Source of the DNA: Sphaerolaimus hirsutus
Lineage: Eukaryota; Nematoda; Chromadorea; Monhysterida; Sphaerolaimidae
Direction of reading: 5' to 3'
Length of the DNA: 64,000 nt
Assembly: GCA_964036195.1 (NCBI GenBank)
Contig: OZ038459.1
Span: 17,047,206 to 17,111,205, forward strand
Part shown: piece after piece, positions 406-63,988 of the stretch
Numbering within the stretch: the first letter of the stretch is position 1
Layout: every line of letters begins with the position of its first letter
The notes under the pieces: generated by a model
The model's input: the letters and a program-made list of their open reading frames with translations, nothing else
Databases searched by the model: none
Told to the model about the DNA's origin: nothing
Made by a program: the position numbers and the translations under genes

Positions 406-800
406 CTGCCGTTATGATGCCCGGCCTAAAGTAGCACCCTGTACTTTACGGCCGGGTTTACTTTACGGCCGGACCATCCCCGTAAAGATGGGCTTTTACA
501 TACCCAAAACTAAACGTGAAAAACGGGATATTTATATTGAGACACATCAACGTAGGTAGATGCTACACAACTTTATGTGTAGTTGCGATGCATATTGACA
601 GCAAATACATTATGTAGGTATTTTACCTTGCACACATGATGACGATGTACAAAAGTGCAGAGGGGGGTATTTCGAGGTGGCGGTTTATTTTTTCCTCCGC
701 TCGAAAAGACCTGGGGGTATTTCGAGGAAATATGGTATTATAACTACGAATGTTGTCATTGTATTGCATTAATTCAGCCTCTCCTCAACTCTTACTACAG

Positions 801-3800: not shown

Positions 3801-4317
3801 TGGCGTTATTTCCAACTTTGCCACAACTGGGTTAGTTTTTCTAAATATCTTTACTTGGCGGACCACATGCTATACATTTTTCTGAACGAAACACTTATGA
3901 CGTCATACTTGATCAAATGAAAATCGTTTCAAAATGAAAAATACATTCGACCTTCAAACATTCGTTTGTATGTGACATCGCCTTTTTCTTTTCCAAATAT
4001 TTTATTGTGAAAGTATGGGTGCATAAGTATCGCATTGGCGTGTAAGACATAAGTAGATGTGTGTGAATATAAACTGTTGTCTGTGGAGAATATTGAGGGA
4101 AAAATTGTATGTGTGGATCATACGCATTCGTATTTACAGGTTTCCAAATTCAAGTGTTCCATCAATGCCAGTGTGGCCAAAAGTCAGCAAGCACTCAGCG
4201 TCAACATTTATGAATTTCAACAGTACTTTTAGTGTTGAGCAAGGCTATCACCATGAAGAAAGTACTTTTTGGATGAAATTGATCCCTGAATTAACGGAGT
4301 GTCTCCCTACTGTGTGA
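801..4317 (+). CDS. Type-B carboxylesterase, gene 1 (5' end outside window)
   Basis: Secreted alpha/beta-hydrolase of the carboxylesterase/cholinesterase family, expected to hydrolyse carboxylic esters. Nine exons fit: 801-965, 1276-1426, 1511-1693, 2129-2319, 2437-2572, 2641-2849, 3234-3366, 3671-3830 and 4140-4317 (TGA). Phases match at every junction and give about 501 residues. Visible family landmarks are SEDCLSLNI, the oxyanion-hole HGGAL, the nucleophile motif GESAGA (exon 1511), the acidic-residue region GTTADEYA (exon 2437) and the catalytic His in HTGDLVYAF (exon 3671). The signal-peptide exon and the GVPYA-type exon seen in gene 2 are missing, so they probably lie left of the window. 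The 2849 donor (GTTAAA) is weak. The next exon seems to have lost the acceptor used in gene 2 and may start about 15 codons later, at 3234. No C-terminal membrane segment is seen. The substrate cannot be told. Confidence 0.85.
2850..3233 (+). other. Esterase 1 intron with altered 3' splice site
   Basis: The equivalent exon of gene 2 starts at 10100 after TTTGAACAG. Here that stretch (about 3193-3204) is 13 bp shorter and the AG is gone. The nearest in-frame acceptor is CTAATCCAG at 3225-3233. Using it would remove about 15 residues. Confidence 0.5.
3855..4139. repeat. Fragment of TATACTCGGCGGACCGCA MITE in esterase intron
   Basis: The intron carries CTTGGCGGACCACATGCTATAC followed by a TGACGTCATA tract. 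It matches the left end of the element that is complete at 25393-25649. No matching right end was found here. Confidence 0.4.
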
Positions 4318-4369
4318 TGTGATTTTCACTTTTTAGTTTGGATTTGACGAATATTCATGTGGATTGCAT

Positions 4370-4871
4370 AGTTGTCAAACATTTACTCAAAAATACATAT
4401 CATCGAGTATCGCATAAATATGTTTTTGTTTCCTCTGAAAGAAAGTACCCGTGATCACCTTCACACATACTTTTTGCATAAGTACTTGAGTACAGGAAAA
4501 GTATTTCGTATAGGCTTTTATATCAGCTTTTTCAAGGCATAGAAGTGTAAAGGGAAGAAGAAAACCCTAAAAATATGGAAAAATAGTCATACTAATTTGG
4601 TAATTAAACACATAGTTAGGAACAGATGAAAATTTTCAAAAAGCAGATGAAATACTGAATTTGAAGGTGAAAATGCGGAAAAAAGGTTTGAAAATGAGTA
4701 ATTTTGGTTGGAAATTGGGGCAAAATTTCTCAAAAAAAACAGTCACTTATGTTTTTCAGCAAAAAGTACTCATTTTTACTCATGAGTAAAGGTAATAACT
4801 TTACTTTATGTTTTCTGTAAATACTTTATGGTTATGTTCACTCCGAAAAACATTCAATACTTTTAACAACT
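4370..4871. repeat. hAT-like MITE, AGTTGTTAA family
   Basis: Starts AGTTGTC, ends CTTTTAACAACT, and shares the TTTACTC/AAAATAC interior with 18409-18940. It lies just downstream of the esterase 1 stop codon. Confidence 0.55.
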
Positions 4872-4912
4872 CTGGTTGTTTGAGTGACATGGTGGTATCA
4901 TTATACTTTAAA

Positions 4913-5523
4913 TATACTCCGGCAACATTACACCTTACAATGAAATCTACCATATCCCACCTGAATAAAAGAACAAACATAAAAATTTTTATCATCATAT
5001 TTATCAAATTGCTTTGATATAAATACCGCAAATCCTCGAATAAGACCCCCCCTCGAATAACTCCCCCCCTTGAATAAGTCCCCCCTGCTGGCGCGGTGAG
5101 GAAAAAATAACTCCCCCCCTTGAATAACTCCCCCCTCTTAGAAACTCCTCCCTCGGATGAAAAGAATACAATACAAAACTATAAGAATAGTAGCCTATGA
5201 CAGCAACAGCAGATACATAATGTGTATGCAGTGTATACACATCGTTTTGTTGTTATTGGACGGTGAAATACCTGAATTTAACGAGTTTACATACTGCATC
5301 AATACAATGAATCAAGTCCAAGTTTCCTGAGGAAATAATAACTCCCCCCCTCGAATAACTCCCCCCCTTGAATAACTCCCCCCTCCAAAATGTCTGAGGA
5401 AAAAATAACTCCCCTGGGGTCTTATTCGAGGATTTAGGGTATGATGTAATTTTTTTATGTTTGTTCTTTTATTCAGATCGGATATGGTAGATTTCATTTA
5501 AGGTGTAATGACGCTGTAGTATA
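4913..5523. repeat. Long-TIR MITE split by a nested MITE
   Basis: The left arm (4913-5020, TATACTCCGGCAACATTACA...) and right arm (5441-5523) are inverted copies of each other. An uninterrupted copy is at 38483-38671 and a single arm is near 45490-45565. The interior is interrupted by the element at 5024-5441. Confidence 0.7.
5024..5441. mobile_element. Nested TA-flanked MITE (CCGCAAATCCTCGAATAAGA ends)
   Basis: Imperfect inverted ends, TACCGCAAATCCTCGAATAA at the left and TTATTCGAGGATTTAGGGTA at the right, both bordered by TA. The interior is C-rich (CTCCCCCCTTGAATAA repeats). It sits in the loop of the 4913-5523 palindrome. Confidence 0.65.
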
Positions 5524-6477
5524 CAATGTAGGTTTGCATAATAAACCTAAACTGACTTTTAATCTTATTATTTTTTCAGTTATTAGCTTATTAGTTCAAA
5601 TCAATGTTTTGAAGCTGAAATGGTATTTATATTTTAGTGAAACCAACACACTTTTCCGCGGCCCTGTATACCTTTTTTGTAACCAAAGAAGTAAACACCC
5701 GAACTGTTTAAAACAAACAATGATGGAAATGATACACTAAATATTTAAATTTAAAATCTACACCCTCAAACGGCTTTATCTGTTCAAAACTTATAATAGT
5801 TCATAATAGGCTAGATTTCTCGTTGGCAATGAATGAAATAATTTAATATGGTGCCCAGAACTTTCTACATTGTACTGGTGGCTGTATTCGCATCGGCTCA
5901 AACCAATGATGAGTTCATCTGTTCGTCGCACGTGGACACAAACTACGAACAATCTGAGAACGTGCTCACATCTATCCCGGTCAGAATCCGGTTTTATTGT
6001 GTGAATTTTTTGTGAACTGGGGCACTGACAAATTTATCAGAGATTCGGAAACACATTTCGGCTCCTGGGCGATGTGAAGGGCAAGATCTTCCAAAATGGT
6101 AATGGCTTCAGAGCGCAGGTGTATAGACATAGAGGCGTGCCCTACGCCACCGCGGGCAGATTCGAGGTATGGAGTGGGGGTTGTGCTGTGCCAAGTACTC
6201 AACTCTTGGATACTAACTGTAGGAACCTGTGCAGCTTGTAGGGGAATTCTAATTTTTTCAATTCACGATTTTCAATTCAAGAAAATTCACATGTTCCCAG
6301 TGCCAGCACTGAAGAGTGCCAGCAAAATTGGCACCGCACAGCACGAGCACAGGCACAAAAGGCACCAGCACCAAGGTGGCACCTCTGATAAGTACAAAGG
6401 CACCGCAGCGCGCTGGTGCCCTTCGGTGTCTAGCACTGGTGCTCTGGTGCCTTTACACCCCCTTCCCAGGTGCCACT

Positions 6478-6560
6478 TCCAGGCGCTGTAAAATGTCAAA
6501 TGTCATGCAAAGTTCAAAAGTCATGGAAAATGCCCTGCAAAATGGCAAACGTTACAGGCA
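6478..6560 (+). mobile_element. Foldback (introner-like) element, half copy
   Basis: GTGCCACTTCCAGGCGCTG followed by TGTAAAATGTCAAATGTCAT and the GGAAAATGCCCTGCAAAATG arm. Only the left arm is present. It lies in an intron of the esterase pseudogene. Confidence 0.6.
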
Positions 6561-7384
6561 GGGCTTTTTACAGTGTCAGGGAGTGCCCCAGGTTGTGTCT
6601 AGAGTCGAGTTACGTCAGCTACTTTGCATAAATTTTATGAACTGATTCCTCTGCCGACGGCTTCACTCGTATTTTTTATACCGCGTCTGATTTTTAAGTC
6701 TGAATTTTCGCGGCTCATTTTGATATCTAAATCTAGCTAGCCAAGCCACCCAAAAAGTTAGCACTGTAAGTGTGAATATTTTCACTATTTTCTGGGCTAA
6801 CTGAAATGATAAATACTTTTTTACAAATCTGATTTGAAAATACTTGTCATATTTTACTACCTATTCTACAAATTCTGGCTCTCAACTCTCAATACAGAAA
6901 CCACAATTGCTTAGGCAGTTTGCCAAGAGTCCTTTGGATGCAACTCGTGAAGGGCCAGTGTGTAGTCAATTTCAAATGATTAGCATGGAATTTGGAACAC
7001 CGAGACCGGAGTCCGAGGATTGTTTATTATTGAACATCATTGCACCCGATCTTAAAAATGTGGGCAATTTTTGTATTAGTCACAATCTTGACTCGGAATT
7101 TGATCAAAAAAAGTAATTTCAGTCATCTAGCGGATACCCTGTAATTATTTGGGTTCACGGTGGAAGTTTGTGTGTGGGACCAGAGGCGTGGTTTTCCTCA
7201 CCGTTCAGTACAGACTGGGACCACTTGGTATGGAAACGCAAATGCAGTTTTTGTAAAGCTTTAATTTTTGATTAATTTTCATCATGCTCCCCAAAACAGG
7301 CTTCCCTTTTTCATCGAATGCTGCATCAAGTTTCATCAACCTCGGTCTGTATGATGCGGACACCGCAATCCAGTGGGTGCTGCA

Positions 7385-7934
7385 TAGGGTGTCAAATTTC
7401 CGTTTTCCGTTTTCCGTTTCCGTTTTCCGCAGGCAAATTTTTTCCGTTTTCCGTTCCGTTTTCCGGCCGCTGAAATTTTTTTTCCGTTTTCCGTTCCGTT
7501 TTCCGGCCACCTTTTTTCCGTTTCCGTTTTTCCGGCTCATTTTCCGTTTTCCGGTTCAATTTTCAGTTTTTCTGCTTTTTTTCCGTTTTCCGGCTCAATT
7601 TCCAGTTGTTCTGCCTTTTTTCCATTTTCCGCCTCAATTTTCTGCTTTCCGCCTCATTTTACCCTTTTCTGGCTCAACTTTCTGTTTTCTGTTCCAGCCA
7701 AACTGGTAAACAGTCATGCAGATTGTCAATTATGTAAAAAAAATTCTGTTTCCAGCAAAATTTCAGCGAATTTTATTGTTTTTTTTGGCAAAATTTCAGC
7801 AAATTTTTCCATTTCCATGCAAATTCCATTTTTCCGTTTCCGTTTTTCCGGCCCCTTTTTCCGTTTTCCGGCCACTGAAATTTTTTTTCCGTTTCCGTTT
7901 CCGTTTTCCGTAAAAAATTTGTTTTGACACCCTA
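7385..7934. mobile_element. hAT-like MITE (TAGGGTGTCAAA) inside esterase 2 exon
   Basis: Perfect 12-bp inverted ends, TAGGGTGTCAAA left and TTTGACACCCTA right. The interior is TTTCCG/CCGTTTT-rich. It is flanked by GTGCTGCA (7377-7384) and GTGCTGCT (7935-7942), an 8-bp duplication with one mismatch, as expected for hAT insertion. A second copy of the family with a perfect 8-bp duplication lies at 24677-25321. Confidence 0.85.
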
Positions 7935-8534
7935 GTGCTGCTGCTGCAACATGTCGCTGCATTTGGGGGTGACCCGCAGAGAATCACTCTGATGGGAGAA
8001 TCGGCGGGAGCCCTGATTGTGTCACTTTTGCACATCAAAAATCCTGGTGTGGTTGACGTTACAATACATTATAACTATTTACTGTAAACAATACAAGTTA
8101 CTACTGTTAACAAGTACTTCTCATACTTCTCAAGTATGGAAAATGTAGAGAAATTCATGCACTTTTCAAAATGTCTTGTGCAAGGGTTGTTACTCAAAAA
8201 TTGGCCGGTTGAGCTGCAAAAAAACCCCTAAAATGATGGAGATACCGACATTCGGATTCCTAGATTCCTCACTTTTTCTCGCGATTTTTCATCACCACGG
8301 TATACGTATCAAGAAACTCGCAGTTCCGAGAATATCTGGCGCCGTGATCATGAGTGGTTCTTCACTGGCATCGGGAGATTGGTGTGACAATCAGAAATCA
8401 TCCTTTGAAGGGTTTGCCGCCAATGCAGGCTGTTCTGATTCAGATATGAGTGCCAACATTGAGTGCTTGAAATCAGTGGATATCTCTAAGATCAAGGAAT
8501 CTGCTGCATTACTGGTGTGTTAGTTAGTCTGCGC

Positions 8535-8662
8535 TAGGATGCCAAAACATGTGTCAAAAATGGAAAGGTAAAAATTTTTCAGCTGCTAGAAAACAGAAAA
8601 TGGAAAGGTAAAAACGTTTGCTTTGCAACATGGAAACAGAAAACTAAAAAGTTGACACCCTA
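8535..8662. mobile_element. Short TAGGRTG...CACCCTA element
   Basis: Starts TAGGATGCC and ends GTTGACACCCTA. Esterase 1 lacks this insertion at the equivalent intron position (near 2330). TCTGC is repeated on both sides. Probably a degenerate relative of 7385-7934. Confidence 0.45.
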
Positions 8663-9060
8663 TCTGCATACCTTCAACATGTATGTGTTTATGTCTTCAA
8701 TGGTTGGGCATCTAATTCTGGTGTTTTCAACATCATGAATTATAATATCACTGTAACTATCTTCTTTGTAACTTCTTTCAGGAAAATAGTGTAGCTGGTA
8801 TGGTATTTTGCCCGGTTCCAGATAACATTGTTCAGCCATTTAATACCACTCAATCACTGCTAAAGACTAGAAGGAACATTATGATTGGAACCACTGCTGA
8901 TGAGAATTCACTAATTGGTATCTTTCATTAAACATACTTTTCCGCTGTCTTTTTTCAATGACATATTATTAATATATATTTATTTAATATATAGATATAT
9001 TTTTTTAATATATAGATATTTTTTAAGATGTATATTTAACTATTATTTCCATGGAAAAGG

Positions 9061-9148
9061 GTGCCAGGCGCCAATGGCGCCATGGCGCTGGCGCCCTTTG
9101 GCGCCATTAAAGGGCGCCAGCGCCATGGCGCCATTCCATCACTACTCA
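9061..9148. repeat. GCGCC-rich hAT-like MITE fragment
   Basis: GGCGCC/GCGCCATGG repeats ending in ATTCCATCACTA, the terminal motif of the TAGTGATG family. The left end is not recognisable. A similar fragment is at about 1150-1220. Confidence 0.5.
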
Positions 9149-10519
9149 GTACTCGAGGATTACGTATTTTTGAAAATGCAAATATGTTTTAACAACTATG
9201 GTCAACACCATAACTCCCCAACGAACCCATATTTGATGATTGGTTCAAACGTACTGAAAAATGTAAAAGCATTTTCCTTCCTGATAGCTTTTCCCTGAAG
9301 TATCTTTAAATAGACATTTTTTTATTCAGCTGTCTCTTTCAACGATATATGTTGTGTGTTCCAGGCATTTTACATCACGGAATTCCATTTGAAATCTTCA
9401 AAGCAGAAATTGAGATGCTGCCCATTGTAAAATATTCTGCCAATCCCACTCTGTTGACAACATTGGTCCTCTACCAGTTTGTGGATTTACCAGGGTTTGA
9501 CAGGGAAGATTCTGCTGAGCTACTAAGAGCTTATGCTGATGTGCGATTTTTGATTGATAGTGTTAAGAAATATGATCAATCAACATAATGTATTTAACAA
9601 TAACATAACATTATGACTGGATGTTACCACTACCAGGTGGATAAAAAGTTACTAAATTTTGGTTTTGAAAAATCCAGAGTTGTTAAAAGGTACGTACGTT
9701 TACTCGAAAAATACGCGTACGCGAGTACGCGGTAAATACGTTTACATATACTTTTTTTAAAGTAACGTACTCACATGTACGCGTACATTTTTGAGGCATA
9801 TGCGTAAAGAAAATGTATTTCTGTGAATTCAATTTGGGACATATTTATAAGGTCACTACGCTGCAATTTACTCTATTTCCTCGAAATACCCCTGGTAGTG
9901 ATTGTTTTATAGTGAAATTTTTGAGGGGAGTTTAACAAGGGCAGGTATTTTGAGGGGGTATTATTTCGCCAGAATATTTCAGAACTCTCAGCACTTATTT
10001 GTTGTTTGTAACGTACGCTGAGGTAGAAAAATGCAACATGTATAAGAGTACATTTTTTGAGTGTTGAATAACTGACTTGAAATCTTCATGTTTGAACAGA
10101 TTGTTTTAGAAACAGTTATTCAAGCGAATGCATTTCTAATCCAGGCGCGAGCCAGCCTAGAGTTCTACACACCGGCTCTAAGAGAAGCTCAACTGACTGC
10201 TGAACTTCCTGACAATGCTGTGTGGCTGTATCAGTTTTCTATTGGCGACCCTAGACTCCCAAACCCTGTCGGGCCTGGTAAGTAATTGATTATTTGGCTA
10301 GAATGTTTTAACTACTGCTCAATTGTGTTGTTATATAATTGTAGGATTTATTAGGCGAGGAACTAGTCACGCTGGTGATTTGGTGTATGCTTTTGCAAAA
10401 CCAATTATAGCAGCTCTTCACAACACTAGTTATGAATTTGATCAAGATGATTGCAGGGTGGCTGATGGATTTTCTGGGGCTATTTCGAACTTTGCCACAA
10501 CTGGGTTAGCTATCCTATC

Positions 10520-10786
10520 TAGTGACAGAAATGCGCCATAGGGCTGGTGCTTGGCGCTAGCGACAAAAAGTGCTATGGCGCTGTTGGCGCTTGACGCTAT
10601 TTCGCTGTGGCACCATTGGCGCAATGCTCCACACCCATAAAAAGCGTAATTGTCGCTATTTCTGCCTGGCGCTACGCTTGGCGCCATTTTGCTCTGGTGC
10701 CATTGGCGCTTGGCGCTGGAATTTGGAAAAGCCCCATGGCGTTTTTGGCGCTTGGCGCCAAAGTCCTGGCACTTTTTCCATCACTA
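10520..10786. mobile_element. GCGCC-rich hAT-like MITE with perfect 8-bp TSD
   Basis: Ends are TAGTGA...TCACTA. Flanked by ATCCTATC at 10512-10519 and again at 10787-10794. The interior is made of GGCGCTTGGCGCC-type palindromic units. It lies in the last intron of the esterase pseudogene. Confidence 0.85.
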
Positions 10787-11260
10787 ATCCTATCTCTTTA
10801 AGGATGATTTCAAAACTTTTGCATTTGTGCAGGTTTCCAAATTCAAGTGTTCCATCAATGCCACTGTGGCCAACAGTCAGCAAGCATTCAGCGTCAATAT
10901 TTATGAATTTCAACAGTACTTTTACTGTTGAGCAAGACTATCACCGTCAAGGAACCACTTTTTGGATGAAATTGATCCCCGAAATTATGGCGTGTCTCCC
11001 TACTGTGATGTGATTTTCACCTTTTGTAGTCTGGATCTCACAAACTTTCATATGGTTTGAGTGACATGCTAAGCTTTACAAGATATGCTGTAGCAATAAA
11101 CATGACAATCTTGATTTCAGATAACCATATATCATTAAATAAGACCCCAGGGGAGGCAGATATCATTCTACCCACAATGTAGTAGGTTTGCACAATAAAT
11201 ATAAACTGACTTCTACTTTTATTAGTTAGATTGTTTTCAGCTCCTTTCATAGAATTTACT

Positions 11261-14200
11261 TTACTTACTAAAATACATTGGCACCAACAAATATATAGAC
11301 CAGTAGAATATATTAAAAATCGCAAAGACACCGGGGAACACAAAAAATGATATCCTGTCAATATTGTTCAGCGTAATTTCACACCATTTCTTTGCAATGC
11401 GGCCGCCGGGACACTGGGGTTGAATTGTTGAAAATGAGCATTTACATTTAACTTGTATCTTGTGTTTAAATTAAAAAACACAAAACTCACGACGCAGGTG
11501 AATAATTTTGGATCATTGATTTTGTCTCCACTGTCGAGGGACTCTGCGAATGTTGTTTCTTGTTCTTTGTGGGTTAAGCACTGAACGAGCGCTTTTGATT
11601 GTGTTAAGTATGTTGGTAGGCAAAGACAAAAACAACAAGGTGCTTACAAAAGAGCCTGCTCTTGACACCAGCATGCAATAAAGACACGGTCAATTTAATG
11701 AGGCTTTTATTATTTACTATTAAAAAACAACAAATTTCTTCTCAGCTCTAGAAAGAGTTTGAACCGAGATTTTTAGAACCTTGGATAGCCCCAACATTTC
11801 TCTAAATGCATCCCCAAAGAGACACCTGCGCCTGCCCCCCCCCATGGCCACACAGGCACCTCAAATGTCTGTGTGCGAGAAGCCACAGCATTCCCTCCTG
11901 GGGGTGTATGTAGAGAAATGTTGGGGCTCTCCAAAACCCCGATTGTCTTTACTCAAATTCTCCCCTGAGCTGAGAGAAACAGTGTTTGGGATTTTTTTGA
12001 CTTAAAGCCAGATTAAGTTGACCAGATTTTTATGCAGTGTGTTTCTGCACTTTTATTTCATCAGTAATTTTTGATAGTATGGACTACTGGGGCCAGTTCC
12101 GCAAGTAGCAAAGTACTTAACTCTCAACTACATCTTTACTCGTAACTTTCTGTTTATCATTTTAGTTTATTTTTACGTTACTTTTAACTTGGCTCTTTAC
12201 TTTGCCACTTGCGGAACCGCCACCCGGACTGGACATTTTTCAATCTACCCTTTATTTAGAAATTGAACTGAAGGAAGCATTCTTAAAGGCTGTTAAAGAT
12301 TCTGTCATGTTTCCCTCCCAAAAACACTCACTCCCTTCCCGAAGACCAACCAGTGTTCAACATTTTCCTCCTGTGTCTGCTTCTACTTTTTCTAAAATCC
12401 TTCCCAGTCAAAACATCATCCTCATGTGCACTGCTTTGATCAATGTCAATTTCCTGGTCACTGCCATGGTCCATCATTGAGAGAAGCTGTGGTGAATTTT
12501 GATGATCACCTGGGGGCAGTCTCAAACCCTGTAAAATGCCCGGTAAAATGTCAAATGTCATGCAAGGTGTCAAAAGTCATGAAAACTGCCCTGCAAAATG
12601 GCAACTGAGTTGCCATTTTGCAGTAAGTTTTCCACCACTTTTGACACTTTGCATGACATTTGACATTTTACAGGGTGTTTTAAAAGGTCTAAAACTGGCA
12701 CCAGGCACTTGCCATTGGCTGACATTGTTGGATTGGGACATGGCTGATCTGCCAGATCTGGGTGGTGTGCTCCATGGTCTCTGCCAGCTGCAAGGGTTCT
12801 TTGAAACTGTTGTTTTTTGGATTTATAAGTGAAGTACAGTAAAAAATGAGTGTGTGAATGCACGGTGAAGCGTCGTGAAGTGACTTCACACCGACATTTC
12901 ATCTCGCCATCGCGCTGGCACGTAAATGTATACAATAGTGAGGCGTGTCGTGAAGTGTCTCAACATGGTGAAGTGTCGTGAAGTGTCTTGACAATTTTGG
13001 ATGCATGTGAAGCGCATGGTGAAGCATGTGGAATACACTTCACCTGAAATTTCCTGATGCTTATGAAAGCGTGTAGAATCGTGTGGAAAGCTTCACGCGC
13101 ATCCAGCCCGCTTCAACACGCTTCACGAACCCATTTTTTGCTGTGTGTGCAGTTTGCTGTATATGTATTACGTTCTGCTGTTTTCCGTCGCGATGGGTCT
13201 ATCCTGTCTTGTCGTGTCGGCTCTGTCATGAAATACCATTATGGGCGATGTTTCAAGTGTACCGACTCTTCTGAAGCCATGCACTGCGCAATATATGAAG
13301 CCGGGCGGACTATTGATCATGGAAGCCTGGCAAAGGGTGACATTTTTTATGGAATAAAATTTTTGCAGAAAAAATCTGGTGCCAATCCCAGACGCTGTAA
13401 AAAGCCCTGTAAAATGTCAAATGTCATGCAAAGTGTCAAAAGTCATGGAAAATGCCCTGCAAAATGGCAACTCGGTTGCCATTTTGCAGAGCATTTTCCA
13501 TTACTTTTGACACATTGCATGACATTTGACATTTTACAGGGCTTTTTACAGGGTCTGGAAGTGCCCCCAAACTTAGCAACAAATCACCTGCTGTCTACTT
13601 GTGAGCGTCTCGAACGGTTGACTAGAACCTGGCGTATTTTCCATTCTGTTTAACCTGTCAGCATGTGCTTGTCCTGCAGACCCAGCTGCCATTTGACCAT
13701 GTGCAGGACAATGTGGGCTGGGCATCAATGGCACAGTTATGGCAGTATCTGCCATGTTGGACTGATGCTGTGGACAGATAGGGTGGTGCCTTCGTCTCGA
13801 CACTGCTGGTGTGCTGGGCCACAATGCCTCTGTTGATGAGTGTTGCTGAATCTGTGTGGGGTGGATGGGTTGTGGGATTGTTCATCATAACAATTTTTCA
13901 ATTTAGGGGTTAAGAAGTCCAGAATGGCAGCTGACATTGTGGCCAGTGACTTGCAGGGTTAAATGTGGTGAATCCCCATAGCTGCAAGGCACTGCCAAAC
14001 TGCTCGCACTTCTGCCAGATGTCGCTGGAGGAGATGGCATGCGCCTACTTTGATGCTGGTTGATGGTAGGATGCACCAAACACGTTGAAGCCTGGAAGGC
14101 ACAAAATGGATTCATGCATCAAAGCGAGTTGTATTATATTTGACCAGAAGTGAATGATTACCTGCTGCACTGAGCCATTTTTTTCATTTGCTTCCTTGTT

Positions 14201-15933
14201 TTCTGCCCGTGCACTCATTATACCTACAGCTGCCAATTCAATCAGGCTCAGAAATATCATTGTAAGGCAAAACAGCATCCAAACGTCCAATGCTTTGACG
14301 TATGATACCCTGGGCAGATTTCTCATGATATTGCCAAATTGAAATGTCAAAGCTAGAAGAGAATTGACACCAAGCATTGTTCTGGCTGGAATCATCCTGG
14401 GTCCTAGACAGAAGCTGATCCAGCTGAAAGATTTTACCCATTTTCTGCAGTCTTCAATAAAAACACTTTTGATGATAATGTACTGCATGCAGAACTGTCC
14501 CTGTTTATTTTTACCCAAAAACTTATAAGGTGAACATCTTTTCAGTCTTGTTTGTGTACCCAAAGCATGTGAAAGTACATGAATACAAGTCCTGTGCGTT
14601 GTACATTATCAGGAGTGTAAGGTGACTAAAGTGTAGAACCTTATGAAAATTGTGAGGTAAGTGGGCACATAAGCCTGCATCATATACCAGCCATATCTTC
14701 TCTTGAATTCAAATGACATTGTCAATTCATTCCAGATCCCTGCCGGATATGGCTGGAAATTTCAGTGAGAAATGACAGAAATCATATTAGGTCCTATGCA
14801 ACACTCAGAGCAACAAACCACATGGGACAGGTGTGTTCCATATTTTGTCAAAGTAAAGTCTGGCAACTCAATGGGCACCTGCAGCAGGGTGATTGGGCTG
14901 TTCTCCAGCCAGCGCATGTCCACCTCCTGTCTGTTGTAGTTGAATGATTCCAGTGACAGTGAGCAGTTGTGCTCGTCCATTGGGAAACTGCTAAAGTCCA
15001 TCACACATGGGCCCTTGACTCTTAACCTGTTTAATTATTTTATTTTGAATATTCTTCAAATTTCTTTCAATTTTAAATGGGTGAAGAGATTTTAACCTGA
15101 CCTGTAATCCACCCAAACTGTGCCATTAGGGTATATCATCAGAAAGACATTTTCAAATGGTGATCTGTGAATAGTGGCCACCTTACTATTTATAAACACT
15201 GTGTTTGGCTTCCAGATCTGTTTTAGAACTTCATTACTGAGAGAGAGATTATGCTTGCATGGATTCTCCTGAAAATTTTGAATTTGTTTTAAATTCACAT
15301 ACAATGAAACTAAAAGGTCTGTAACTCAAAATAAATTGTTTACCTTTTCATAATTCAGGGCATCATCTACCCATAATTCATTTATATAAATGTCCATTTC
15401 AAAATCACTTGTCAACTCATTGAGTGAAGTAACTGATTGCACCCATACCTTGATATATTTGATGAAATTGGAGGATGTTTTGAGAAATGAAACACGATAT
15501 ATTAAATGGAATCGTAGACTTCTTTCCAAATACAACATGAAAAGTGGTAACCACTCACCTCAATTTCGACCACAACACCCAATTCTGAAGGTCTTCTGTG
15601 GTCTTTGTAAGCCTCCAAAATTCTCTCAATTATCACCTGAAAATGGAAATAAGATAAACAAAGCCACACTCTGATGGTCAGCTTACTCTAGTGTGATTTG
15701 TATGCTACTGTTGTAGTGTGTATGCTTACCTTGTCTGATGTGCAGTTTCTGCTAATATTTTCTGCTTTTTGCCTTCTTCCAGGCACAACATGCTCAGGGT
15801 GCTTTGGAAATGCTTCTAATAAATCATCATCATTAGGTTTGTCCCTTTTACCTTTTAGATAGGAATTGAATGCTGCAGATTGATTGAATGTGAAAGTTGT
15901 GAGTAAGGCAAGTGGTAGAATTAACCACATCAT
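11261..15933 (-). CDS. Cys-loop ligand-gated chloride channel, paralogue A (pHCl-like)
   Basis: Pentameric plasma-membrane channel subunit. Exons: 15933-15730 (ATG; hydrophobic [11 protein letters not shown]), 15636-15559, 15448-15344, 15268-15102, 15026-14819, 14752-14640, 14423-14162, 14091-13951, 13851-13655, 12787-12702, 12509-12332, about 11543-11491, and 11413-11261 (TAA). Landmarks: a Cys-loop of two cysteines 13 residues apart around [10 protein letters not shown]1 ([10 protein letters not shown]), M2 with the anion-selectivity motif PAR and [17 protein letters not shown], then [16 protein letters not shown], a Ser/Pro/His-rich M3-M4 loop, and M4 ([16 protein letters not shown]). M2 resembles arthropod pH-sensitive chloride channels, but the ligand is unknown. 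An acceptor at 15953 allows an upstream exon. The joins between 12332 and 11543, and the loop frame, are the least certain parts. One intron (12510-12701) is exactly a foldback transposon. Confidence 0.8.
11787..11930. repeat. 144-bp hairpin with ~29-nt arms
   Basis: AGCCCCAACATTTCTCTA at the left is repeated inverted as TAGAGAAATGTTGGGGCT at the right; the loop is C-rich. The region 11640-12230 around it holds no exon that I can support. Confidence 0.6.
12513..12701 (-). mobile_element. Foldback introner-like element that is an entire intron (copy B)
   Basis: In gene sense it starts GTGCCAGTTTTAGACC and ends GAGACTGCCCC, with long inverted arms (TGTCAAATGTCATGCAA and complement). Flanks in gene sense are CTG before and CAG after. 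The intron 12701-12510 is the element plus that CAG. It joins exons in phase 1 (CCT G | GT GAT) and leaves the M3-M4 loop frame open. Confidence 0.85.
12845..13130. repeat. GTGAAG/CTTCACG inverted repeat
   Basis: Many copies of GTGAAGCGTCGTGAAGTG in the left half and CTTCACGCGC/CGCTTCACG in the right half. A shorter relative is at about 35345-35470. No coding signal. Confidence 0.5.
13379..13567 (+). mobile_element. Foldback introner-like element, antisense in intron (copy C)
   Basis: Starts GTGCCAATCCCAGACGCTG and ends CTGGAAGTGCCCC, with flanks CTG and CAA. The long arms pair around GGCAACTCGGTTGCC. It lies in the intron 13654-12788 of paralogue A, in the orientation opposite to the gene, so it is carried as a passenger. 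Confidence 0.8.
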
Positions 15934-31264: not shown

Positions 31265-31617
31265 GTGCCACTCCCAGACCCTGTAAAAGGCCCTGTAAAG
31301 TGTAAAAACCTGTAAAATGTTGTGTCATGTAAAAGACCATGTAAAGTGTCAAATAACATGTGATTTTATTTTATCATATCCAAATCTTATGTTTTCATAT
31401 CCAAATATTTCTTTTTGACATAATTTGGATACAAAAACATAAGATTTGGATACGATAAAATAAGATTTGGCTACACATGGCACATGACAGGGTTTTTACA
31501 TGACATTTGACACTTCACAGGATTTTTTACATGACACATGACATTTTACAGGGTCTTTTACACTTTACAGGGTCTTTTACACTTTACAGGGTCTTTTACA
31601 GGGTCTGGGAGTGGCAC
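31265..31617 (+). mobile_element. Foldback introner-like element with nested palindrome (copy F)
   Basis: GTGCCACTCCCAGACCCTGT...GGGTCTGGGAGTGGCAC, flanks CAG and TTG. The centre (about 31375-31475) is an unrelated palindrome of ATATCCAAATCTTATGTTTT units, probably a nested insertion. The right arm carries a GGGTCTTTTACACTTTACA triplication. Confidence 0.75.
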
Positions 31618-32859: not shown

Positions 32860-35800
32860 TCAAATCAGCTTATACGGCTTCACTTGAGTACTGTAGATAT
32901 CCGACGAAAGCATTTCCTCGGAAAAGGCGGGCTTATTCAAATAATACGTCCAATAAACCAAATTGAACACAGAAAACAAGGTGGGAAATATGACGCATGA
33001 CGCTTGGTCGATTTTGTCCGGTTGTATGGAACAAGACCGACTGCTGCAGAATACCGGGCAACATAGACGGCAGCCAGCAAAGCCTGCGTGTATGTAAGTT
33101 TTTGGAAGGTTATGTTGCACAGCAAAAACAGTGCGCGTGATCTGCCGTTATCGTTCCCCCCCCCCCCCCCCTTGAAAAACACCCCCGTAAGAGACTTGCT
33201 CAGTCTGTTGACTGTTGAGCCCAATTCTAACACAAATGGGACGTTCTTGTGTTAACAAAGCATAGTACGTGAAATGAGTTGGTAGACATATGCTCGAAAA
33301 AAAAATTTACGAAATAATAATTCTTCTCCTTGAATATGTCCCCTCTAAAAAGTCTGACGAAATAATAATTCCCCAGAGAAATTATTCAAGCCACAAATCG
33401 AACCACAAAAAACACACGCATCTCAAACCTGCCACCGCCCACTCACAATCAAGAGCTTCTTCCCTCTCCTCTGGCTCCTTAAAAACAGCTTCATACCTTC
33501 TGACATCCCTCGAATACCTCCTACGGAACTTGTCGCTCTGCATGGGCATCAAAGTGTTGCCGCTGTTCGTTCTCTGCGTCACGCTAGCGGTCGAGTTCGA
33601 GTCCGGCAGCACTCTGGGGCGCCAGTCCCGGACCCTGTAAAAGACCCTGTGAAATGCCAAGTCGTGTAAAAAGCCCTGGAAAATGTCAAGAGTCATGTAA
33701 AAGATCCTGGAAAATGTAAAATGGCATGCCGTGCCAAAAGTCATTGAAAATGCCCTCGAAAATGGCAAACACGTTGGCCATTTTGCAGGGCATTTTACAA
33801 GACTTTTGACACTTTGCATGGCATTCGATATTTTCCAGAGTTCGCTTCCAGGGAAAATTGTTCCATCACTGACACTTTACAAAGCCATCACTTCACGTTT
33901 CCATCACTTTACACTTTACATTTTACAAGGCCTTTGAACTTGACTTGGCATTTTCAAAGCAACTTGACATCCCACAGGCCCTTTCACAGGGTCCGGGACT
34001 GGCACCTGACAGGTCGCCCCTGGGTCTGAGTATTCTCAGTCGTAGTTACACTGCTCGACGTGCGATGGGCGGACGCCAGGGGGGCACTCCCAGACCCTGT
34101 AAAAAGCCCTGTAAAATGTCAAGTGTCATGCAAAGTGCCAAAAGTCATGTAAAATGCACTGGAAAATTGCAGACACGTTTGCCATCTGGCAGGGCATTTT
34201 CCATGACTTCTGACACTTTGCATGACAATTGACATTTACAGGGCTTTTTACAGGGTCCGGGAATGGCACCCGATCGGCGTGCTGCCGGTGCGATTGATGC
34301 GGCGCGGCTGCGGGCGCCAGTCCCGCGTGTTTGTGGTGCGGATTGGAGTCGTTCGGCTCGCACGGTTCGGACACGGAAATGTCCGCTGAGGTGATTGAGG
34401 AGACTGGTCGAAGGCGGATGCGAGGACTGTTGCTGAACGGGCGGTTTTGGGGTGTTATTTGAAGTTGGTGGCATTTAAAATGTTCTGTTGTCATAGCTCG
34501 ATGGCGACAGCGACAACACTGCGACGACAAATGTTTTTGAAAAGCCTATAACTTTTGAGCGACAAGTACAAATTATTTGTAACTTGGGATGTGTGTGCAC
34601 TCACGTATTCTAGTAGTAGTGTATACACTGCCTTTTCTATCAAATACGGAGCTTTTTCCTTGAAATATAAAACATTAACGAAATTTTTTTGTCATTACAT
34701 TTTTTCTGTAAACACCGCCTAATGAGCACCTTGCAAAAACTGAAAAAATAATGACATTTGCCAAAAACTTGTCAAAAGCTCAATTTTGAAATTTCAACAA
34801 AAAAAACATGACAAAAAACATTGAATCTGCGCAGAACCAGTGAAACAAAAACAACAAAAATTATGAATAAACAACCACAAAAACAAACAAAACAAAACCA
34901 ACGTATAACTATGAACCTCTCTGTGCTGCGAATCGTCACCAAACTGAAACTGATGTCTAGAAGACAACCCCCTATCCGGTCCGCTATGATAGCCGGTGCC
35001 TACAGGCCCGGGGCTTAATGACTGGCCGACTTCAAATGTGGACACTGAACAGTCGGCTAGTGTTGCCGCGTTTCTGTTAAAATGGGGGGTGGGGGGTTAT
35101 TGGGGTGTTTTTGGGGTTTTAAGGATTTTAGGATTTTGAGAGGATGTGATCTTGAATCTTGGTGTTGATGATTAATAATAATAATTGTAATGAATCGTAA
35201 TGGATAGTGATGTAAAAACGGGCAAAACTTTGGCGCCGAGCAATGAATTACATGTGAGGCGTAAGCAGAAGATCATAGCTGATAGTTGAATCTTTGGCGC
35301 AATCTATGATCATTCTTAATTTTAGACATCAAAAGGCAAAAAAATGTGCGGGTGATGTGCGGTGAAGCATTATGAGGTGTCTTCTCGCATGACATTTCAA
35401 GATCCATGCACAGTATGCACGTGGTTCATGGAGTGCGCTTCAACAAATTTAGTGTGCATGATGCTTCACGTATCTTTATTCTTGAACATAATAGTGTTAA
35501 AATATTGCCATCCAACATCTAAATGTAACACATAAAATTGACGTACTTTTGCTGCAGCCGTCTGTGGGGACTCTGTCGCAGGCTGCCCATTATTTGTCGC
35601 GTTAAAAAGTGACGCGCCCGCGTGCTTTTGCTCATGCGCCGGTTTTTGCGCGATGCCTGTGCAGTGCAAATCGAATCAAAATTAAAGAGACAAATACCTA
35701 CCCAGTAAAATGACTCAAAGTTACCTTTTTCTTTTTTGCTGATAATGTTACTTTTATGTAGGTTTTTTACTTATGATAAAGATACAAAATCGCAGGGGAA

Positions 35801-38800
35801 GCGTCCCCAAACCGCAATGATTACGTACATAGACCTTAAAAATACCGAGTACCATGGCTGATAAAACGTATTTACGTTTCCTCGAAAAATACCTGTACTC
35901 TAGTACTGCGTAAATAGGTTCAAGTTTTCTCCATAAACATATTCATGTTTACGATAAGTCAAGTGATATGACCTACCGTATTTCCTCGAAATACCCCCCG
36001 GGGGGTGATTGTTTCATAGTGGTCTCAAGAGGGTGGGGGGGGGGGGTCAAACGAGTGGGGGGTATTTCGAGGGGGGGTATTTCGAGGAAATACGGTAGAT
36101 AAAAATGAGATTGAATGCGATCATTTCTTCTTTATAAGTTCACCCGAGTTTGCACTCATATTTACCCTACCTAACACTATACTCTGCTTATCACTTGTCT
36201 ACTCGGACACCTTTCATCGAAATACCTAGTATTTATTGTATCTGAACCAACCTTGTCCATGGGGTCGTCCGGCGGGGCGGTGGGCAGGTCGCGCACGATG
36301 TAGCCCACCACGGCGAGCTCGAGCAGGCTGGCGAAGATGAACGTCATGCACGCCAGCATCCACACGTCTGCACCAGATGCCACATGGATGGTAGTGATCG
36401 AAGGTTGCCAAGAAAATGCTACTGAACGTTAAAATTAACTGTTTTGTGTAAAACGTAGTGTATTTGCCTGACTTTTATTCTGTAATTTTTATTCAGACTT
36501 TGAGGGGGAGACATTCAAGAGGTGGAATTATTCAAGGGGAAACATTTTCTCCTGACTCTTGTAACTGGGGAAATTATTCAAGTAGGGGATGATTCAGAGG
36601 GGAATGATTCAAGATGGGGATAATTCAGAGGGGAACTATTTAAGCAACTGCGTTTTTTTTAGAAAAATTGGTGCGCGGAACTGAATGGTGCCGGAAAAAA
36701 ATGGGTCAAAAATATCGTTTACGACAGTTCTAAATGCACTGCAGAGGAGAAAGTGGTGTGAAGCTTCATCGATGACATCGTTTCCCTGCACAACACAGTT
36801 CAGCGCCTAGCGCGACCCTGTGTCATAAAAAATATAAAAATAAATTGACAACAAACCAATGGCTTTGACATAAGAAACCCGCGGCAAATTGCGCATAATA
36901 TTGCCAAACTGGAAAATCATCGCCAGCAGCGCGTTGACGCCGAGCATCGTCCTGGCGGGAATCGCCTTGGCGCCCAGTGCGAAAGACACCCAGCTGCGTA
37001 GGGAATTGAAGGGTATTGAAGGGTCTCGTTACAGAAGTAAATACCGTATTTCCTCGAAATACCCCCTTGAATTAACCCCCCCCTCGAAAAAACCCCAGGT
37101 GTTTTCGCGCTGAAAAAAAAATTGACCCGCCCCCCTCGAAGTACCCCCGTCTGCAGTAAAATACATCATGTACATGATGTATAGATTGATGTCAATTTGC
37201 ATCGCAGCTACACATATACTACTATATTTATGTGTAGTTATCAATGTGATGTCTTATAATATTTATGTAGGTCTTTATATCGTGTTCGGTCACGTCTATT
37301 ATCAGTTTGAGATATGTAAAACGCCACTATTTACTACGATCCTTACCGAAAAGTTCTGGCGAAATAATAACCCCCTCGAATAAGCCCCCCCCCTCAAAGT
37401 TTCCACTCTGAAAAATAAACTCCCTGAGGGTATTTCCAGGAAATACGGTAAATGCCAAATCCACAAAAATCGAGTTAAGCATGGATTTCACACCCACGTG
37501 TAGCTTTGCACATTTTAGAAGAAAAAGATTAGTGGTATAGTCCATGTCGTTCTGTAGATATAGAGATATACATTGATACCGATTTTAAGAAAAATACATT
37601 GAAGGTACATTTCCACGATTTTGAAAAATCGGAATTAGTGTAGATTCGTAGTTTTGGACACAGACTCTTCAAATGAGCTATTTTTGTGCGTGAAAGTGTG
37701 TGAAGTAAAATGAACTATGAAAATTAGACTCTTCAAAGTTACCTGATAAAAATAGTCAAATAAGTGGGTATGTAGGCCTGTAGAAAGTACCAAACGTAAC
37801 GCCGCTGGAAGGTGATGTGCAGGTGGAGTTCGTCCCACATGCCCGCCGGGTATTGCTGCGCGATTGGGTAAATATTGGTAGGTAATATATTACCGTATTT
37901 CTTCAAATAGAAGGGCGCCCTTCAATTTTTCCATCAATTTTTTACCAGCTCTTTTCTGTTGAAGACGCCCTTCTATTGGAAGAAAAACGGTAATTGAGTA
38001 CTAGGGATGACGCCCCCCCCCCCCGTCACCGTTTATCTCTGTAAATATTTTTCATCCGAATGTATCTAAGAAATTGCAATAAGCAGATGGACGAAATATA
38101 AATAAACGGGGCAAAATGACGCACATTTTTCTGTAAATATGCCGTTACTGTTTGTACCGTTTTTATTACCGTTTGTACTCGAAAGATCCCCTTGAATAAA
38201 CCTCCCTTGAAATACCACCTTGAATTAAACCCCCTCGAAATACCACCTTGAATTAAACCCCCTCGAAATACCACCTTGAATTAAACCCCCTCGAAATACC
38301 GTAAGTTTGAGTGATCTCGGAAAATTCCATCCATAATTGAGTGTAAAGCGAGTGCAGTGTTTCCCTTTAAATACCTAAGATATTTATTGTATCGGTATTT
38401 TTAAAAACCCATCGCTTATCGCTTATCGATTACAGAAACAGGTCTGTTACTGTTGAATTTTTCTAAATCCGGGTACCTACCTATGCTCCTGCGACATTAC
38501 ACCTTACAACAAAATCTACCGTATCCCATCTGGATAAAAGAACAAACAAAAAAATTCATCATATTTATCAAAACAATTTTATAAATATAATGAAAATATT
38601 TTTATGTTTGTTCTTTTATCCAGATGCGATATGGCAGATTTCATTGTAAGGTGTAATGTCGCTGGAGTATATGTTACAAACAATGAACAAATAATAGAAG
38701 TTCATAAAAAATGTGGCGAAATAATATCCCCTCGAATAGGCCTCACTTGCATTAACCCCCCCCCAGAAAAAAAAATTCCTGGCGAAAAAACGAGCCCCAG

Positions 38801-41800
38801 TAAATACGGTATACGGTAAATACGGTAGACCTTTATGGGACTTATGGCGTATTTATGGGACTACGACAATTGAGGCGTCTAATTCTAAAAGTCGACAAGT
38901 CCACAAAATGCGATTTTGAGTAAATCTCTTTTTAAGTTTCATTTCCAATTCCAGGTCCGTGGTGCGTGTCCAATGGGGCTCTCTCATGCTCAACATTAAG
39001 TTCCAAATGTTAACAATAAAGTGTCAAATTTTCAGCCCTTGCTCTCAACGTATCATGGAAAAATTGGGTGTCTATAAAATTCTACTCAGACAGAACAAAA
39101 CCGTTTTGGGGAGGAAAATGCACTTGTCGACGTCTTGCACTCGAAAACATTTGTGTTCCCGCCCGCATCCTGCCTGCCTTATGGGAAATTTATGGACTTG
39201 TCGACTTTTATAAATCAGTGTCCATGATGGACTTATCACATTTCTTGCGTTTTTTCCATAAAATAAGGCTGCGGAAGGTGGACTAGTCGACTTTTAGCCC
39301 AAAACTAACTGGACTTGTCGACTTCTTGCCCAATTTTTTTGCATTTTTCTCTGAAAATGTCAAATTTGGCACTTTGCCATATGGGCATGTGAGGTCAAAA
39401 AATTTATGGAAACTGATGAAAAATGTGCGGGAGAAGCCCCAGATGACGTTTCCGGGCTTAACTCAAAATTTTCATATTTTGGACTTTTAGAATTGGACGC
39501 CTCAATTCTATTGCAGATACTTAACCCGGCCGACAATAACATAAAAAATACATCCGACAAAAATTACGTGGGTTTCTTCCTTGCTCCCACCACCCACCTC
39601 AGTCTTATTCAGCACTCTCAATTCGATCACATCGAAATCGGGCAGCCTCAATTCCTTCAAATTGTACACGCTGTACGGCTCCGTGTGCGGGTTCCAGCGC
39701 ATGCGCACCTCCTCGCTATTGTAGTTGAACGATTCGTAGATCAGGGGGCAGTCCCAGACCCTGTAAAAAGCCCAGTAGAATGTCAAATGTCATGCAAAGT
39801 GTCAAAAGTCATGGAAAATGCCCTGCAAAATGGCAACCGAGTTGCCATTTTGCAGGGCATTTTCCATGACTTTTGACACTTTGCATGACATTTGACGTTG
39901 CCATTTTGCAGGGCATTTTCCATGACTTTTGACACTTTGCATGACATTTGACATTTTACAGGGCTTTTTACAGGGTCCGGGAGTGGCACCAGATTGCACC
40001 GTTGCGAGTCCATGGGGAACTTGGACAGGTCCATGTCGCACGGGCCGCGCACTTTCACTCTGAGAGGATGAATTAGTTTATGGGGGTTTGTTGGAAGGTT
40101 AGATTCGTGCAAGTACGGTAGCTGTGTTTTATATGGGTGTGTGATAAAAATCGTGAAGAGGGTATGGTTGGTAATTTCAGGGTTTTTTGCTTTCAAATTT
40201 CTCCAAATTATCGGTTCGGGTATCAGTTCCGGGTATCGAATTCGGTTCCGGTTCGGTTCTTCAGTTCCATAATGTCTCAAATAAAAATATCAAATCTGGT
40301 TCACATGACATCACGCTGTTTGAAAATTACATTGTTATTTTTGTTACCATTGTCAATTGTGGTATTTGTAATTTCAAATGGAACCCTTAAAGCAGCACAT
40401 AAATGCCTATTAAATACCTACTGTGTTCTCCAATCCAAACGCCTGAAATAAAAACAAATCCAGCAGGGAGATTTTTCAGATTTTTTAAGTATGGGAGATT
40501 TCCTCAGAGCTTTTATTATATTTTCCAAATGAAAGGAGACATTCCAATTAATGACATCCTACTAAGACCGTAATTAAGGGTAGCTGACGGGTGTATGCCG
40601 TTAATTTTACTTGCATTTTATTTTTTTTTTACTTGAAAGGCTGCTCCAAGTAAACAATTGAATTGAATGAGAGTTTTCATTATATTTTATCTTTAGACAG
40701 ATTTTCCGAGATTTTATTAAACTTTTTTTTGAAAATCTACCACAGTAACCACCAGGTAACCACAATGAAAACAGCGTTACAAGAGCTGAAACCTTCTCCC
40801 TCAAAAAATCCCCACTGATCCAACCTGTAGTTGACCCAAACGGTGCCATTGGGATAAATCATCAGAAAGACATTCTTGAAAGGTGAGTCATGAATAGAAG
40901 CAATTTTACTGTTTATAAAGCAAGAATTTGGTGTCCATAATCTCTCCAAAACTTCATGTGACAAGCTCAAATTCCTTTTGCACGGATTTAAATGTTCATA
41001 TCTGAGCGCGGAATCCAGCCACATCTCATTGATGTAAATGTCCATTTCAAAGTCGTTAGTGAATTCTGAGATGCTGGTAATTTCCTGGATCCAGAACTCC
41101 ACATTGACCAGAGTTCCTTGAACGCCTTCGGTTACTGAAATTAGGGGGGGGTTAAAATTTGGAATTATGACGCAAAACAATGAGTGACAAGAAAATGTTA
41201 ACCGGAGTGATAATACATGGCACATTAGGGGGGGGGGGTATCAATCATGGAAAATACTTCGTATGGTATTGAAACAAGGAAGGGCGAACCTATTTTGGTA
41301 GAGCCTATGATCCACGTAACTCCAAAATAAAAATAAAATAAATGAGAAAATAGGCGTTTTTGAGGTCCATTTTGCCTGGAGCTTGAATGGCGCCATTTGG
41401 GTGCGCCAACTCGGTTGCCATTTTGCAGGGCATTTTCCATGACTTTTGACACTTTGCATGACATTTGACATTTTACAAGACATTTTACAGGGTCTGGGAC
41501 TGGCACCTGGTCTTTCAATCCCCCACTTCCGACTCACCCGGTAATTTGTGCTTATTATATCCAGTCCCATTGAGCAACTGATCGACCACACTCGTCCCAT
41601 TAGCGCAGCCACTTTTTTCCCCACTTGAATCTGCAACTTCATCTACATTGCCACCACTTCCCCCAAAAAGGAAATATGGCGGATTTGAAGGCAGTTTGTA
41701 GTCTCCCTCCCCATCAACAGTGTGCATAATTTGTTGATTCTCAGTTGAATATATGGACGCAGTTCTGATCGGGCCATAGAGGTGATCAGGTACGTTCGGA

Positions 41801-47171: not shown

Positions 47172-47464
47172 CATGTGAAAAACACACACACACCACCTCA
47201 AATGCATGACACAATGTTGGCACTGATTCAAAAACATGTTGTAAAAGATGTTGATTTTCCATCCCTAGGATTTTATTTTTGCAACTTTATTTTTAGCAAC
47301 ATGAGTGATAAAAACTTCTATTTTTGCTTTATCTTGATATTTGAATGAACTGTTGGCATTTAGACTTCATTACGTGTGTGTGAAAACATTGGTAGAGAAA
47401 CCAGTATCAAAAATTACTGCAAGAGTCGTATCAAAAAGTAACAGATCCGACTCGACTCGAGACT

Positions 47465-47664
47465 NNNNNNNNNNNNNNNNNNNNNNNNNNNNNNNNNNNN
47501 NNNNNNNNNNNNNNNNNNNNNNNNNNNNNNNNNNNNNNNNNNNNNNNNNNNNNNNNNNNNNNNNNNNNNNNNNNNNNNNNNNNNNNNNNNNNNNNNNNNN
47601 NNNNNNNNNNNNNNNNNNNNNNNNNNNNNNNNNNNNNNNNNNNNNNNNNNNNNNNNNNNNNNNN
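47465..47664. other. Assembly gap (200 N)
   Basis: Exactly 200 undetermined bases directly after a CTCGACTCGAGACT tract. The round length suggests a placeholder rather than a measured size. Confidence 0.99.
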
Positions 47665-48194
47665 AATCCATTCTCCATTCAACAAGTCACCAACGTCACA
47701 CTCGCACAACCTCCATGACGCATTTGCATACCTAGCAAAAGCAGCCAATACCAAATCGGCAGAGTTTCTTCGACTCCAGCGCGCCGCCCCAGCGGCCAGA
47801 GTAGGTCCACAGTTGGTGCAGTGCACCGCGCACGCAATACAGCACGTAGTGCGCTGCGGACGGAACGCGCGAGAAAAGGCGGGTCGGCGCGCGTGCCAAT
47901 GCGACCCGACCCGACTCGACCCGTCAAAAGTGTCGGGTCAGATTGACAATGGTTTAGGGAAGCAATAGCCGGGGTCTCGTAGATTGAAGGGATTCACACA
48001 GGTTATGGATGACTTTCCGGGGGGGGGGGTTCGGGTGGTAGTCAACATTTTCACCGCGGATTAGATTGAGGGTTTTTCCACCCACCCCTGTGGGCTGCTC
48101 ATCATGTTGGCATTACGACAGGATTTGACTTTCAAATACTTTTTCACCACAAAGTTAAGGGAAGGCAATATTGAACAGCGCAGTACCAGCAGGT

Positions 48195-51924: not shown

Positions 51925-52716
51925 GCCTGCCCGCACACAAGTTGACAAATGTGTGTCAACTGAAATTTCGGCTTCGCGAGCGCTCTCCAAATGGAGTCTG
52001 CATCAAAATCCAAACAGCGCATAATCCAAACAGCATAATCCAAACAAAAATGAGGCATAATCCAAACGAAAATGAGGCATAATCCAAACACTTTTTTGTG
52101 CCCCAAACTGCAGCATAATCCAAACAAAAATGAGGCATAATCCAAACGCTGTCCAAGCACTTTCCCTCAATGACGTGTACACCACATATTATGTTCTGTT
52201 TTCATTTCCAAAATTCATTTTCTTCTATATGTAACTTGTCCTGTATGTGCCACAATTTGAAAATATAAGCCATGGGTGTGGATGCGTGTCACTTATTCTG
52301 TTGCAGGCCAATAACAGGCAGTGATTTAAGAGGCTGATTTAATGTGAAAATGACTTGAGTTGTAGCATTGAAGTGACCGACCAATATGCAATGTGAGTGT
52401 TTGGATTATGCCTCATTTTTATTTGGATTTTGCCTCATTTCCGCTTGGATTATGCTGCAGTTTGTGGCACAAAAAAGTGTTTGGATTATGCCTCATTTTC
52501 GTTTGGATTATGCCTCATTTTTGTTTGGATTATGCTGTTTGGATTATGCGCTGTTTGGATTTTGAGCTTTCCCCCTCCAAATGCACATGTGACAATGTTG
52601 AAAAATGAATATTACGGCAAATGCATATTGTGGAGATCGCTCTGCGACACGTGAGGTCGAAATCTGAGTTGACACAGACCAGTTGACACGCGTGCGTCAA
52701 CTAGTGTGTGGGCCGC
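51925..52716. mobile_element. ~790-bp element carrying a giant minisatellite palindrome
   Basis: Outer inverted ends GCACACAAGTTGACAAATGT and TAGTGTGTGGGC. Inside, 52004-52165 is a minisatellite of GCATAATCCAAAC units, and 52395-52564 is almost exactly its reverse complement, around a ~230-bp unique loop. No transposase is seen. Confidence 0.65.

Positions 52717-58198: not shown

Positions 58199-63988
<5,790 letters not shown>

Follow-up and report, generated by a model that had tools for sequence, protein, structure and literature searches.

A palindromic element with a CWG target duplication splits a Cys-loop receptor exon and may be removed as a GT-TG intron

The 64-kb window (the whole stretch of DNA that was analyzed, to which all positions refer unless a locus is named) contains a Cys-loop receptor gene, gene B, in which one exon is split on the minus strand by 248 nt (39989-39742) lying between the codons for CNL and those for IYESF. 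Judging from the letters of this insert and its relatives, it is almost certainly a mobile element with a CWG target duplication, and its most likely fate would be removal from the pre-mRNA, mainly as an intron with GT and TG ends. The element family as a whole probably acts as an introner. The more specific reading, in which the insert is an introner of a NuwaI-like transposon and its GT-TG ends are a built-in by-product, is offered tentatively, and we are a shade more tentative still about GT-TG splicing at the gene B locus itself. The sequence supports the family, the palindrome, the CWG duplication, the placement in conserved exons and the orientation trend; splicing, the use of TG and a role for the hairpin are inferred.

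The conserved part of gene B, a channel of the LGC-49/ACC type, covers 32860-41134 on the minus strand (extent judged by eye from the open reading frames). The upstream piece of the split exon (39990-40059, minus), which encodes part of the Cys-loop, ends in TGC AAT CTG with its last base at 39990, and the downstream piece (39598-39741, minus) begins with ATC TAC GAA at 39741 and reads to ...NKTE. The last codon of the upstream piece, CTG (39990-39992, minus), is the 5' copy of the target duplication, and the CTG at 39742-39744 (minus) is the 3' copy, the TG of which (39743-39742) is the candidate 3' splice site. The palindromic MITE-type element itself occupies 39745-39989 (minus), with one end, termed D, coming first as GTGCCACTCCC and the other, termed A, coming last as ...GACTGCCCC. 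The GT at the 5' border (39989-39988, minus) is a donor lying within the D end, where the second base of the family consensus is T versus G at the opposite end. Near the 3' border the insert reads TTTTTACAG to 39761 and then GGTCTGGGACTGCCCCCTG; TTTTTACAG (39761-39769, minus) looks like a canonical acceptor. When the 248 nt were deleted, the codons TGC AAT CTG ATC TAC GAA TCG TTC (CNLIYESF) were joined in phase 0, and when the insert was read through as if unspliced, the frame entered the element and reached a stop (ORF end 39783). A sequence-only reading had earlier reported the coordinates of the insert, its GT and TG borders, the CTG duplication and the phase 0 restoration of eight codons, and re-reading of the minus strand bore out all of these. 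It had also claimed that paralogue A is continuous at the homologous place, and there the exon (ORF 14762-15034, minus, CSLSLESF) is indeed uninterrupted and represents an empty site. The exact restoration of the frame was rejected as proof of splicing, because the target duplication alone guarantees this outcome: once an insert is taken out together with one copy of its duplicated triplet, the frame is always recovered.

The protein obtained by joining the gene B exons by eye matched PF02931 (E 1.1e-43) and PF02932 (E 4.4e-22). A search returned 639 relatives, with a best identity of 77% among the 120 listed; as far as their names show, these 120 are nematode proteins, many of them LGC/ACC channels and four of them nameless, which suggests that the host is a nematode. 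The Cys-loop had 13 residues between its cysteines in 115 of the 116 relatives from this list that could be scored, and after exact excision of the insert gene B likewise has a Cys-loop of 13 residues together with its ligand-binding and membrane domains. Two more copies were placed in this gene by eye. The second (34077-34269, minus), in the region of the M3-M4 loop, has the borders CGG/GT...CTG/GCG (slashes mark possible splice junctions) and would leave phase 0 if cut as GT-TG; its flanking triplets differ, and its coding status is that of an open frame only. The third (33614-34005, minus), a longer form with the borders CAG/GT...CAG/AGTGCTG, offers a canonical GT-AG intron that keeps the frame. 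Gene A has a sense copy too, placed by eye at 12510-12703 in its 3' portion; the flanking triplets of this copy differ, one being CTG and the other CAG.

The recurrence of the insert far exceeds chance: it is repeated within the window, and a DNA search of the genome with it gave at least 85 matches, the best non-self match having an E value of 2.5e-87 (40 of 1160 candidates were scored). The 348-Mb genome contained 1,324 exact copies (683 forward and 641 reverse) of a 27-base pattern from one end with CAG before it, a count that covers CAG-preceded ends only, compared to 0 copies of the reversed control pattern. Thirty loci were cut out, corresponding to 25 distinct places since five repeat a place on the opposite strand; this is a small sample, picked for similarity to the gene B copy. 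All copies were read from the GTGCC (D) end to the GCCCC (A) end. The same triplet flanked the element on both sides at 16 of these 25 loci, being CAG at 11 (L006, L007, L008, L012, L014, L017, L018, L019, L020, L021 and L026) and CTG at 5 (L001, L010, L016, L025 and L029). Locus L018 holds two copies, and it was the searched copy that had CAG on both sides; if the second copy were counted instead, the number would be 15. L006 and L007 share the same exon and may stem from a single insertion event. The remaining nine loci (L002, L003, L004, L005, L009, L011, L013, L015 and L027) lacked identical triplets, the copies being decayed, composite or different from side to side. Because every identical pair of flanking triplets was either CAG or CTG, the target duplication of the family is CWG.

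The family is of the MITE type, about 190 bp long and palindromic almost throughout. In the consensus of a 23-copy alignment the first 80 positions of the two arms contained 3 mismatches. Two of these fall within bases 1-4, where one of the pair turns GG into GT. The D end starts with GTGCCA and the A end with GGGGCA. The gene B copy had none of the 189 singleton sites in this alignment, the members of which were chosen for their similarity to that copy; an age estimate based on singletons was dropped as a test due to this bias. Elsewhere in the window, a 353-bp relative (31265-31617) has GTGCC at both ends rather than one GTG and one GGG, and decayed copies were seen at 60356-60551 and 61600-61755, apparently in introns of an RPB2 gene (borders by eye).

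The flanks of the 25 loci were joined, and ten joined translations that appeared coding-like were chosen for comparison with Pfam. Eight of these matched above the family cut-off, the families being Neur_chan_LBD, Glyco_transf_7C, SNF, EGF_laminin, Ank, Propep_M14, SLC12 and, at an antisense site, AAA. The SNF match crosses the junction with a length that is off by one position, and the Propep_M14 match of L020 lies downstream of the junction only. A BIG2_C match was below the cut-off alone and reached 102 bits on the larger protein joined across two insertions and an ordinary intron. The joined translation of L012 had no Pfam match above a cut-off, and neither did ten more ORFs taken from seven loci (L003, L008, L011, L013, L015, L019 and L021), one of which hit DUF2633 with an E value of 0.12; eight of the 25 loci, including L007 with the exon that it shares with L006, lay outside the Pfam comparison. 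Nine of the 25 sampled loci were thus Pfam-supported coding sites with open frames on either side. Eight of these nine were in the sense, splice-competent orientation (two-sided p 0.039): gene B and the genes for a galactosyltransferase (L006), an SLC6 protein (L010), a laminin EGF protein (L014), an ankyrin protein (L016), a carboxypeptidase propeptide (L020), an SLC12 protein (L026) and an ARFGEF/BIG protein (L029). The ninth, in an AAA ATPase gene (L025), was antisense. Adding the second BIG copy and the two further gene B copies gave 11 of 12 in sense orientation (p 0.006), although these three copies were included only later and come from genes already represented among the nine. The eight sense sites were divided equally between CTG and CAG (four each), and CTG is therefore not depleted in this small sample.

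An arrangement with CTG like that of gene B was found in three more conserved genes (L010, L016 and L029). The ARFGEF/BIG gene carries two copies, one flanked by CAG (L029:662-831) and one by CTG (L029:1497-1683), and the BIG2_C match crosses both junctions; this gene provides a natural matched pair for comparing AG with TG. The galactosyltransferase exon and its insertion were nearly identical at L006:1340-1775 and L007:1340-1775 (approximate positions, on contigs C3 and C14), with unrelated introns on either side, and the likeness may be due to an exon-limited conversion or duplication. The view of this pair as an old shared insertion was set aside, as the likeness ends near the ends of the exon and may reflect recent conversion.

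These features suggest a way in which the element could make introns. A non-autonomous palindromic DNA transposon would cut into CWG and duplicate it, and the GTG of one terminal repeat would set a GT donor directly behind the upstream CWG, with the second CWG, at the far end of the element, serving as the 3' splice site. Insertion into CAG would give CAG/GTGCC...CCCCAG/, an ordinary GT-AG intron whose removal would restore the exon exactly. Since the final triplet of such an intron is the target duplication, a CTG target in the sense orientation ends in TG, and exact excision from a CTG target, as in gene B, would be a GT-TG event. As RNA, the gene B copy was predicted to fold into a hairpin with an energy of -171.4 kcal/mol (z -18.8), in which TTTTTACAG was paired along its whole length; within the terminal CCCCCTG, pairing took in part of the C run and the G and left out the T. 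Such a hairpin, pairing nearly the whole element, might hide the internal TTTTTACAG and draw the two ends close to each other. The AG of TTTTTACAG ends 19 nt upstream of the TG, within the 28 nt noted below for human TG sites, and may still aid early recognition of the 3' end in the manner of known TG-AG pairs. A NuwaI-like autonomous partner would be expected to encode a DDE transposase and a Myb/SANT protein and to have GGGGCAGTCCC-like ends and CWG duplications. Somewhat doubtful is the broadest form of this proposal, in which a MITE family turns exonic CWG into introns and a sizeable TG-ending class is routinely spliced, with the hairpin and not a terminal AG setting the 3' end, so that a constitutive, transposon-made GT-TG class would exist.

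The sequence-only reading had offered a choice between GT-TG splicing and a recent disabling insertion, having judged that other acceptors break the frame. That judgment stands for AGs within the element when they are paired with the CTG/GTGCC donor, every one of which shifts the frame, but it fails for a second donor, the exonic GT at 39998-39999 (minus; ACG/GTGCAA). Splicing from this donor (39999) to TTTTTACAG/GG keeps the frame and is free of stops, so that an in-frame shifted GT-AG option had been overlooked; some AGs in the downstream exon are also in frame, at the cost of skipping at least 10 codons. The GT-TG alternative that the earlier reading named is what the anatomy of the family predicts. 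What it had missed was the mobile nature of the insert, with CAG insertions giving GT-AG, and the CTG parallels at L010, L016 and L029.

Shifted canonical splicing of this kind appears rather improbable at gene B. It would use what looks by eye to be the strongest acceptor, and similar in-frame options were seen elsewhere: at L029 an analogous shifted GT-AG intron would change APHL to WDCPL, at L010 an AG 12 nt upstream of the CTG, off the consensus, would add DCPL, and at the antisense L025 a GT-AG option would keep the frame with 6 additional residues. However, the shifted product would lose the original cysteine codon, for which a TGC of the element would substitute, and its Cys-loop would have 16 residues, three more than the 13 that nearly all scorable relatives have. 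In addition, L016 has no shifted option milder than changes of about 60 nt, TTTTTACAG is entirely paired in the predicted hairpin, and a frame-compatible exonic GT close by is not unlikely by chance. The AG of L010 was considered as a compensating change, but this idea was weakened because the same non-consensus A recurs in L019, a CAG copy that has no need of such an AG.

It is also unlikely, though less so, that the insert is recent and unspliced, so that the sequenced animal carries a null allele of gene B, or one that is spliced poorly and retains part of its function. Consistent with this, the copy may be young, given that it has none of the 189 singleton sites in an alignment biased toward it, its donor is weak, it has no terminal AG, and the retained element leads to the stop at 39783. 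Against it, the visible exons of gene B are open and the joined protein is up to 77% identical to the listed relatives, and the same CTG arrangement recurs in exons of three other genes (SLC6, ankyrin and ARFGEF/BIG), of which the ARFGEF/BIG gene also has a CAG copy. A still weaker case, which we consider improbable, is that of a passive MITE with no role in splicing, its coding copies having landed by chance in paralogues, pseudogenes or heterozygous alleles. Copies do occur in apparent introns or intergenic DNA, as in the RPB2 introns at about 60.4 and 61.6 kb (by eye), and ten ORFs from seven loci had no Pfam match above the cut-off, but this explanation accords poorly with the nine of 25 loci that are coding by Pfam with open frames on both sides, eight of them in one orientation.

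The element and its predicted splicing were compared to known systems. The introners of a published survey (PMC9860276) resemble this family, according to the available text, in being repeated elements in coding exons with terminal repeats and target duplications, and in that the element brings one splice site and the target duplication the other, a mode given there for Chrysochromulina. Here, by comparison, the target is a triplet, CWG, whose middle base would determine an AG or a TG acceptor, and the palindrome takes in almost the entire element. In the available text of that survey the animals with introners belong to only two groups, and the host here is apparently a nematode. We found no report of introners in nematodes, or of GT-TG introners, in the open-access literature. 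The available account of NuwaI, of the PHIS superfamily (PMC4482050), describes a CWG target duplication and animal hosts, as here; its terminal repeats usually begin with GGG, as does the A end of the element, whereas the D end begins with GTG, and they measure 12-61 bp versus about 90 bp here. The 16 animal genomes named in that account include no nematode. The introner elements of Amoebophrya (PMC7789003) are described as sharing with this family inverted repeats that form hairpins, direct repeats of 3-5 nt at the exon borders and non-canonical ends. Their splicing is backed by RNA-seq and more than 60% of introns there are non-canonical, whereas the present family is known from DNA and the five ordinary introns of gene B (borders placed by eye) are all GT-AG.

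Human U2 introns with TG 3' splice sites (PMC2374985) have the form GT...TG with an AG within 28 nt, compared to 19 nt here; as far as the available description goes, these sites are alternative sites only, in host introns, and not a class made by mobile elements. Mutants with AG changed to TG were spliced, in the cases described there, at neighboring AGs and never at the TG. Published precedent runs the other way in Caenorhabditis elegans, which is described as tolerating some mutated 3' sites without AG (PMC10946897, with reference to Aroian 1993 and to Zhang and Blumenthal 1996). Fritillaria borealis (PMC13326754) offers a likeness in that the U2 spliceosome of an animal accepts non-AG ends; about 95% of its introns are said there to escape GT/AG, in contrast to the five GT-AG introns of gene B, which leave a Fritillaria-like, genome-wide non-canonical spliceosome unsupported here.

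How introns originate is still debated, as is how strictly the spliceosome requires AG at the 3' end. If the element acts as proposed, one mobile element makes matched new introns that differ at a single base, the middle of CWG, the genome is a natural experiment on AG versus TG acceptors, and introners extend to an apparent nematode. A study of intron gain in nematodes (PMC9169325) mentions, in its available text, unseen source sequences, introners for example, as something that might account for intron gains without a known origin.

Other features of the window were recorded as well. A region at about 47440-47670 is masked and appears as X in the ORF list. Two tandem esterase-like genes (by eye) lie on the plus strand at 784-11059 and have in common eight exon-sized direct repeats of 82-95% identity. 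A foldback at 52003-52565 has short TTTGGATTATGCC-like repeats and two 144-nt arms that are 97% complementary and separated by 275 nt.
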